From the NCBI GenBank assembly GCA_021324175.1, contig JAJPJP010000422.1:1-64000 (forward strand): DNA of 64,000 nucleotides, in the 5' to 3' direction. Below the pieces are notes generated by a model. The model was not told where the DNA came from, ran no database searches, and saw only the letters and a list, made by a program, of their open reading frames with translations. Position numbers and translations under genes: made by a program. The DNA comes from Chitinophagia bacterium. GTDB taxonomy: Bacteria > Bacteroidota > Bacteroidia > Chitinophagales > Chitinophagaceae. This document shows, one piece after another, positions 51,507 through 53,583 of the stretch (positions are counted from its first letter, which is position 1; every line of letters begins with the position of its first letter).

Positions 51507-52487
51507 TTAGCGTTTTTCGGCTATTCTCAGTTTTGCGCTTCTCGCTCTTGGGTTATTTTTCAACTCAGCTTCCGATGGTCCGATCGGCTTTTTAGTCACC
51601 AGTTCGAAGGGCGGTCGTGCCCTTGCCCCAAAGAGATCACCATCTGCTAAAGAATCATCCCGGTTTCCGTGTTTGAAAAAGTTCTTTACGATTTTGTCCT
51701 CGAGCGAATGAAAGGTGATGATCACTATCCTGCCTCCGGGCTTGAGAATGCCGACCGAATCGCGCAATATGTCTTTAAGGGCATTCAGCTCGTCATTGAC
51801 CTCTATCCTTAAGCTCTGGAAAACCTGTGCAGCATATTTGTTCGGATTCCCTTTGGAAACTGAATTCAGCAGGCTCGTCAAATCGCTCGTCGTTTTGACC
51901 GGCGCTTTCTTTCTTTCCTCCACGATTTTCCTCGCCAGCGTTTTTGAATTGGTCACTTGCCCGTACTGCTCAAAAATCCGGTGCAGGTCCTTTTCGTCGT
52001 AGTTGTTGATGATTTCTGCCGCGCTGAGAACTTGCTGAATATTCATCCTCATATCCAAGGGCCCGTCAAACCGAATGGAAAAACCTCTACCTGCCTCGTC
52101 AAACTGGTGACTGCTGACCCCAAGATCGGCGACGATACCGTCGACTGCAGTCACCTCGTAAAGACGCAAAAAGCGCTGGAGATGACGAAAATTCTGGCCA
52201 ATAAACACAATTCGCTCATCATCTGGCAAGTTTCGAGTGGCATCGGCATCCTGGTCAAAAGCGTAAAGCCTACCTTCTTTTCCAAGCTGGCTAAGAATCG
52301 CCCTTGTATGGCCCGCACCGCCGAGTGTACAATCGACGTAGATCCCGCCCGGTTTGATCTGCAGACCCGACAACACTTCAGGAGTCATGATCGGCACATG
52401 ATAAGCTCCGGACTGTTCTTGTGGTTCAGATTGGGAGTTCCTCTTTTTCATAAGCCAATCCTTAAATGATTCCTCGTCAAGCCTCAC
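51507..52487 (-). CDS. rsmH: 16S rRNA (cytosine1402-N4)-methyltransferase RsmH (MraW)
   Basis: YHVPIMTPEVLSGL, YVDCTLGGAGHTRAIL, VDGIVADLGVSSHQFDEAGRGFSIRFDGPLDMRM, IITFHSLEDKIVKNFF. Confidence 0.97.
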   Translation of the reverse strand: MRLDEESFKDWLMKKRNSQSEPQEQSGAYHVPIMTPEVLSGLQIKPGGIYVDCTLGGAGHTRAILSQLGKEGRLYAFDQDADATRNLPDDERIVFIGQNFRHLQRFLRLYEVTAVDGIVADLGVSSHQFDEAGRGFSIRFDGPLDMRMNIQQVLSAAEIINNYDEKDLHRIFEQYGQVTNSKTLARKIVEERKKAPVKTTSDLTSLLNSVSKGNPNKYAAQVFQSLRIEVNDELNALKDILRDSVGILKPGGRIVIITFHSLEDKIVKNFFKHGNRDDSLADGDLFGARARPPFELVTKKPIGPSEAELKNNPRARSAKLRIAEKR

Positions 52488-52947
52488 CGGGCATCATAAA
52501 CTTCTTGTTCAGGAGCTTATTGGCCATGCTGCTTACTGATTCCGTTGGAAATTCTGCAAAGAACTTGGTGTACTTACTTTTATCCCAGATTTCTATGATT
52601 CTGCCAGTGGCAAGGAGAACGATGTCCTTTTCCAGTTCGGCATGAGGTTTCAGGTTTGGAGGCACCAAAAGTCGCCCTGCGGAGTCCAGTTCAAGTATAG
52701 TCGCCCCGTTCAGGAAAAACCGTTTGAATTGTCTAATTTCAGGATCAAAATCACTTAGGTTATTTAAATCATTGAAAATGACCTCCCAAGTCTTCCATGG
52801 GTACAAGCTGAGGTATTTTTCCATGCCACGATTGACAACAAATCTGCTATCACTTTCATCTTCCATCTGCTTTTTGAAGCCGACAGGGAGAAGGAAGCGA
52901 CCTTTTGTGTCCAAAGTAGCTTCATATTCACCAAGAAAACCAGCCAT
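52477..52947 (-). CDS. mraZ: Division/cell wall cluster regulator MraZ
   Basis: FLGEYEATLDTKGRFLLPVGFKKQM; FFLNGATILELDSAGRLLVPPNLKPHAEL (two AbrB-like repeats). Confidence 0.95.
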   Translation of the reverse strand: MAGFLGEYEATLDTKGRFLLPVGFKKQMEDESDSRFVVNRGMEKYLSLYPWKTWEVIFNDLNNLSDFDPEIRQFKRFFLNGATILELDSAGRLLVPPNLKPHAELEKDIVLLATGRIIEIWDKSKYTKFFAEFPTESVSSMANKLLNKKFMMPGEA

Positions 52948-52970: not shown

Positions 52971-52992
52971 TTCCCTTAATTCCTACAATTCC
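52971..52992 (-). promoter_or_regulatory. Three GGAA repeats at 9-bp period upstream of mraZ (candidate MraZ box)
   Basis: TTCC at 52971, 52980 and 52989 on the plus strand; minus strand reads GTGGAATTGTAGGAATTAAGGGAAATT. Confidence 0.35.
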
Positions 52993-53116
52993 ACACAAAA
53001 TAACCTTTTTTACCACAAATAATGGTAATTTGCGAAATTTAATTTTTTCCACAGCGTCTTTTTTGCATGAAATATAGACTGGTACAGGCTTTCAAGAGAA
53101 TTATTATTCAACAGTA

Positions 53117-53156
53117 TGTGAATTGCCTGTGAATAACTGTGGATATTTGTGAATAA
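53117..53156. promoter_or_regulatory. DnaA-box-like tandem array
   Basis: TGTGAATAA (53128-53136), TGTGGATAT (53138-53146), TGTGAATAA (53148-53156), weaker TGTGAATTG (53117-53125); opposite-strand TTTTCCACA at 53045-53053. Confidence 0.55.
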
Positions 53157-53172
53157 CACTAAAATCGTAGCT

Positions 53173-53583
53173 ATGGCGACCGTAGGTTACTCGGGTAAAC
53201 CCCTGTTTAATAAGCTGGGTATCAAGGAGGATATGAGGGTTTTGCTGATCGGTCAGCCCCAGGATTATTTTTCGATTCTTGAAGTCGATATTTCTAATCA
53301 AATTGTCCCTCCTCATATGAATCCGGATTTCGTCCATATTTTTGCCCGCACACAACATGAATATGAGGTCGCATTGTCAAGGCTCAAAAACAAATATGCG
53401 GCAAATCCGAAGATGATTATATGGGTTTCCTGGCATAAGAAATCAGCGAAAATACCCACTGACCTAACCGAGGATACCATTCGGAATTACGCATTAAAAA
53501 ATGACCTCGTGGATATTAAGGTTTGTGCTGTCAGCGAGCAATGGAGCGGCCTGAAGCTGGTCGTTTCAAAGTCAAAACGCTAG
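53173..53583 (+). CDS. DUF3052-like conserved protein
   Basis: ATVGYSGKPLFNKLGIKEDMRVLLIGQPQDYFSIL; HIFARTQHEYEVALSRLK; WVSWHKKSAKIPTDLTEDTIRNYALKNDLVDIKVCAVSEQWSGLKLV. Confidence 0.75.
   Translation: MATVGYSGKPLFNKLGIKEDMRVLLIGQPQDYFSILEVDISNQIVPPHMNPDFVHIFARTQHEYEVALSRLKNKYAANPKMIIWVSWHKKSAKIPTDLTEDTIRNYALKNDLVDIKVCAVSEQWSGLKLVVSKSKR

Follow-up and report, generated by a model that had tools for sequence, protein, structure and literature searches.

What does a row of DnaA-like boxes do in front of mraZ, the first gene of the dcw cluster, in Chitinophagaceae? The window, by which we mean the whole stretch of 64,000 nucleotides that was analyzed, is contig C371 of a draft genome of 5.1 Mb in 450 contigs, the relatives of which are Chitinophagaceae (Puia, Flavitalea, Chitinophaga, Ferruginibacter, Niastella and Pinibacter). 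Upstream of mraZ, four TGTGNATAA-like boxes lie on one strand at positions 53117-53156, at steps of 11, 10 and 10 bp, and a further box faces them (Table 1). Re-reading of the window sequence reproduced the positions, strands and steps of these four same-orientation boxes and the opposed one as given in an earlier note on this DNA, which had offered three readings: part of oriC, a titration site, or DnaA control of the division cluster.

Table 1. Features of the mraZ upstream region in the window, and related sites in other genomes
Feature	Position	Strand	Description
Array unit 1	53148..53156	-	Window letters TGTGAATAA; mraZ sense TTATTCACA; -209 from mraZ start codon; exact DnaA-box consensus TTATNCACA
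Array unit 2	53138..53146	-	Window letters TGTGGATAT; mraZ sense ATATCCACA; -199; 1 mismatch to TTATNCACA
Array unit 3	53128..53136	-	Window letters TGTGAATAA; mraZ sense TTATTCACA; -189; exact consensus
Array unit 4	53117..53125	-	Window letters TGTGAATTG; mraZ sense CAATTCACA; -178; 2 mismatches
Opposed box TTTTCCACA	53045..53053	+	Opposite to array units; -106 from mraZ start codon; fits TTWTNCACA
Putative MraZ-type operator	52987..53018	-	GTG repeats at 10-bp steps, mraZ sense: TGTGGTAAAA AAGGTTATTT TGTGTGGAAT; middle repeat degenerate
mraZ	52477..52947	-	First dcw-cluster gene; PF02381 3.7e-30, TIGR00242 above cut-off
rsmH (mraW)	51507..52487	-	Second dcw gene; PF01795 9.4e-98
Further dcw genes	to about 47492		ftsL-like, penicillin-binding protein, murE; names by sequence inspection only
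Divergent small gene	53173..53583	+	Reading frame; called DUF3052 in the earlier note
Order-level loci with a single TTWTNCACA box			L036, L041, L043, L045, L056, L057
zapA double DnaA-type boxes			Genus members L132, L133, L135, L137, L139, L143, L080
dnaB box rows	about 200-370 bp before the start codon used		L080, L143, L141

Single exact boxes mean little in the window, because TGTGNATAA was found four times against 1.68 expected, in agreement with the point already made in the note that such boxes are near chance level. The signal is the phased triple rather than the single boxes: TGTG-N6-TGTG-N6-TGTG occurs once in the window against 0.00 expected from 100 shuffles, and three TGTGNA units at 10- or 11-bp steps gave no match in 200 simulated 64-kb sequences. 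The AT-rich stretch noticed at 52995-53050 was also recovered, with 77% A+T against 52% for the window, and it covers the putative MraZ-type operator and a conserved AT-rich sequence beside the opposed box.

The array lies between two genes, and the question of which of them it serves could be addressed by comparison. The identity of mraZ was borne out by PF02381 and TIGR00242; the name DUF3052 for the divergent gene was not, as this gene had no family match in Pfam or NCBIfam. A homologue search found the divergent gene absent, broken or relocated in many members of the genus and family, which suggests that it has been lost repeatedly in the genus; in many genus members it is missing, split by stop codons or fragmentary (for example, relatives L125, L126, L130 and L131). 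The array comprises 3.5 units in 13 loci with the divergent gene and 3.6 units in 17 loci where that gene is absent, broken or elsewhere, and because it is equally large without this neighbour, it belongs to mraZ. A role as promoter element of the divergent gene was accordingly rejected. The array is thus tied to one transcription unit and not to the other neighbour, as would be expected of a DnaA-regulated promoter.

Upstream regions of mraZ were assembled from members of the genus and order identified through their MraZ domain, from 80 named loci and from pattern matches, and after removal of duplicates, 110 distinct regions of Chitinophagaceae were retained. Nearly all family members share a common plan relative to the mraZ start codon: a row of TTATNCACA-like 9-mers on one strand at about -155 to -230, then, near -95, TTTTCCACA or TTATCCACA in the opposed orientation, and, between about -60 and -35, GTG repeats. 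The opposed box is kept in 105 of the 110 loci and reads TTWTCCACA in 98 (TTTTCCACA in 80 and TTATCCACA in 18), lying at -92 to -98 in most relatives compared with -106 in the window. In the 105 loci with an opposed box, there are 3.38 array units per locus on the array strand and 0.35 on the other strand, the steps are 10 bp (82), 11 bp (100) and 21 bp (29), and the period is 10.55-10.6 bp. The array stands in fixed helical phase with the opposed box in these loci (R = 0.66, a Rayleigh figure that is not a strict probability, because the loci are related by descent and phase statistics overstate their independence). In 81 representatives sharing few 8-mers, the phase lock was R = 0.67; the units numbered 271, where shuffled sequences averaged 42, and the 10- or 11-bp steps numbered 136, where shuffling gave 0.29. 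The array and its opposed box are not due to chance and are conserved across the family Chitinophagaceae.

The row is also close to specific for mraZ. A search with exact box pairs was too strict for the array in most genomes, and a three-unit pattern was therefore used, which gave 51 matches in 149 family genomes as compared with 4 for the reversed control. Comparison of the pattern positions with the MraZ search, together with inspection of the loci for MraZ, assigned 37 of the 51 to mraZ upstream regions, all in one orientation, and 13 to other places, with 1 not placed. Only 43 genomes carried a three-unit match because the pattern is strict; a looser unit measure shows the row to be far more general. 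Of 14 order-level relatives outside the family, 6 carry a TTWTNCACA box between -83 and -119 of mraZ that is oriented like the -95 box, and none of the 14 has the row. By this distribution, the opposed box predates the array.

Which protein is most likely to bind these boxes? A matrix anchored on CAC alone, a procedure that presumes nothing about the remaining positions, returned TTATNCACA; position 5 and the positions flanking the 9-mer carried no information, and the published DnaA-box consensus TTWTNCACA covers both forms of the opposed box (PMC12371093). The 9-mers of the array, in the CAC-anchored matrix, and 98 of the 110 opposed boxes fit TTATNCACA or TTWTNCACA, and the steps of 10, 11 and 21 bp correspond to the tandem spacing of about one helical turn that characterizes DnaA-box arrays. 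The DnaA of the window genome has an intact HTH domain with GGRDHTTVIHS. The spacing speaks against DnaA: the usual array step of 10 or 11 bp leaves 1 or 2 bp between neighbouring boxes, and the preference of E. coli DnaA is for 2 or 3 bp (PMC11317965). The earlier note had suggested conservation in related genomes as a check, and the retention of both the opposed box and the phased row throughout the family, together with the DnaA-like matrix and the helical phasing, supports its assignment of these sequences as probable DnaA boxes and, among its three readings, that of DnaA control of the division cluster. We consider it likely that the array is a cis-regulatory DnaA-binding element, predicted from these features, and that it belongs to the promoter of mraZ and the dcw cluster in this family.

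The main rival binder is MraZ, the GTG core of which resembles a DnaA box. MraZ operators consist of seven-nucleotide repeats with three-nucleotide spacers and a GTG core (PMC7761207), with AAAGTG[T/G] repeats in Mollicutes (PMC8475190), and our first guess, that the array is simply the MraZ operator, was dropped after a separate MraZ-type operator with strict 10-bp steps was found nearer to mraZ in the same promoters. The family consensus of these mraZ-proximal GTG repeats is AAGTGGGAAAAAGTGTTATTTTGTG, their pairwise distances are mainly exactly 10 and 20 bp, and they appear to constitute a conserved MraZ-type operator separate from the array. Whereas the proximal repeats keep the exact 10-bp steps of an MraZ operator, the array does not (period of 10.55 bp; steps of 10, 11 and 21 bp). 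It might still be argued that the distal array serves MraZ as a second operator in inverted orientation and that MraZ, by binding GTG repeats on both sides of the promoter, represses its own cluster; MraZ boxes do, after all, repeat a GTG every 10 bp in front of mraZ, the array is found mostly at that gene, and the E. coli MraZ site overlaps the mioC DnaA box, over which MraZ binds (PMC4446571). However, a clear MraZ-type operator, its steps strictly 10/20/30 bp, is already present in the same promoters, the array differs from it in period, in matrix (T at position 4, A at position 3) and by its opposite orientation, and array-type boxes also occur before zapA and dnaB, which together make a second MraZ operator unlikely.

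The boxes at these two other promoters came from the exact-pair search. Exact pairs are rare in the genus, numbering 20 among the matches listed in 32 genomes as compared with 1 for the control. Seven exact pairs consist of TGTGNATAAGGTGTGNATAA, with an 11-bp step, about 20-25 bp upstream of zapA (PF05164), and three lie upstream of dnaB within same-strand rows of TGTGGATAG, TGTGTATAA or TGTGCATAA, and TGTGGATAA at 21-bp steps (two helical turns), although these cases are not an unbiased sample because they were found by searching for box pairs. That zapA and dnaB also have such boxes in the genus favours DnaA over MraZ. DnaA is favoured, in sum, by the matrix, the two forms of the opposed box, the 10.55-bp period as opposed to the strict 10 bp of the MraZ repeats, and these other promoters. 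The upstream regions of dnaA itself contain only single, scattered boxes. As a separate observation, exact TTATNCACA boxes are about twice as frequent genome-wide in Chitinophaga arvensicola (G060) as in the reversed control (465 versus 207), and among the matches listed they give the impression, and no more than that, of being denser at C2 about 2.7-3.03 Mb and C3 about 1.7-2.7 Mb.

The array might instead be a datA- or DARS-like site of DnaA titration or nucleotide exchange, seated here by chance and acting on replication rather than on mraZ. Such a site would consist of clustered DnaA-type boxes away from the origin, as seen here, but the place, orientation and helical phase of the array relative to the mraZ promoter are fixed in diverse genera and there are only 3-4 units per locus, so that we regard a titration site as improbable. 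About as little credit can be given to another regulator, of mraZ or of the divergent gene, as the binder of the array: in the window, 17 bp separate the end of the array from the start codon of the divergent gene, but the size of the array is the same with and without that neighbour, and its 9-mer is the one known for DnaA.

The position of the origin was examined by GC skew, computed also at third codon positions in the complete genomes, which removes gene-orientation effects. In complete genome G089, the skew flip is about 0.55 Mb from mraZ, and in complete genome G163 it is beyond mraZ, the 20-kb block past mraZ being still negative; these flips are placed only roughly because the sampling took one 20-kb block per 165-205 kb of these genomes. 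Three further relatives with long contigs (G060, G009 and G007) likewise have no skew flip at mraZ. The oriC option of the earlier note, for which the row of DnaA-type boxes beside an AT-rich stretch and the distance of 60-80 kb between mraZ and dnaA in several genus members could be cited, is rejected as highly improbable by the GC-skew test that the note itself proposed, because the array is not at the skew minimum in these five relatives and the AT-rich stretch corresponds to the putative MraZ-type operator and conserved promoter sequence. When the true oriC was sought through exact box pairs, the zapA and dnaB promoters were found and no origin, and the box pair near the skew flip of G089 lies inside a gene. 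In the window genome, dnaA is on another contig, and its distance to mraZ varies elsewhere; in both G089 and G163, dnaA is near the skew maximum, that is, nearer to the terminus than to the origin.

How might a DnaA-binding element at this place work? We infer that DnaA would nucleate at the opposed TTWTCCACA box near -95 and that DnaA oligomers would then fill the mostly weaker same-strand row about 60-130 bp further upstream, the boxes of which share a face of the helix and keep phase with the opposed one. The resulting complex may gate the promoter that MraZ, from its own operator between about -35 and -60, is expected to control; dcw transcription would thereby respond to how much DnaA is present or to its ATP state, and through this to replication initiation. 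In this way, the array probably ties division-gene expression to chromosome replication. Activation of mraZ transcription is slightly favoured over repression, as a guess, because the array is far upstream of the presumed promoter. We more tentatively put forward, at somewhat less than even confidence, that DnaA directly times divisome expression in Chitinophagaceae and that the oriC-like phased dcw array and the boxes at zapA and dnaB make up a dedicated initiation-division circuit. The family-wide, phase-locked array at the dcw promoter offers a concrete, mutable element for testing the coupling of replication and division in Bacteroidota.

Comparison with known systems places the array among several precedents. 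It resembles the double DnaA boxes of E. coli (nrdA, mioC, polA, purH and mutH/DARS2), which are tandem DnaA-type 9-mers about one helical turn apart in promoter regions and bind cooperatively as pairs (PMC11317965); unlike these, the present, predicted array usually has 3-5 units with 1- or 2-bp gaps and an opposed box in fixed phase, and lies at the dcw promoter. The low-affinity arrays of E. coli oriC similarly consist of mostly weak, equally oriented boxes in a row beside stronger boxes, which nucleate DnaA oligomers over the weak-box rows (PMC4285127), but the Chitinophagaceae array is not at the origin. The MraZ operators of E. coli, Mollicutes and Burkholderia share with the array a GTG core, steps of about 10 bp and a place upstream of mraZ; the array differs in matrix, period and orientation, and the family has its own strict-10-bp operator closer to mraZ. 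DnaA control of division genes has been proposed for B. subtilis ftsL, Caulobacter ftsZ and E. coli mioC (PMC8203912), and our proposal is of the same kind, but it concerns another phylum and the promoter of mraZ itself, where the phased row is extended and shared by a whole family. DnaA is already known as a transcription factor and at division genes, whereas a family-conserved, extended row of helically phased boxes at the dcw promoter is new as far as the open-access literature shows.
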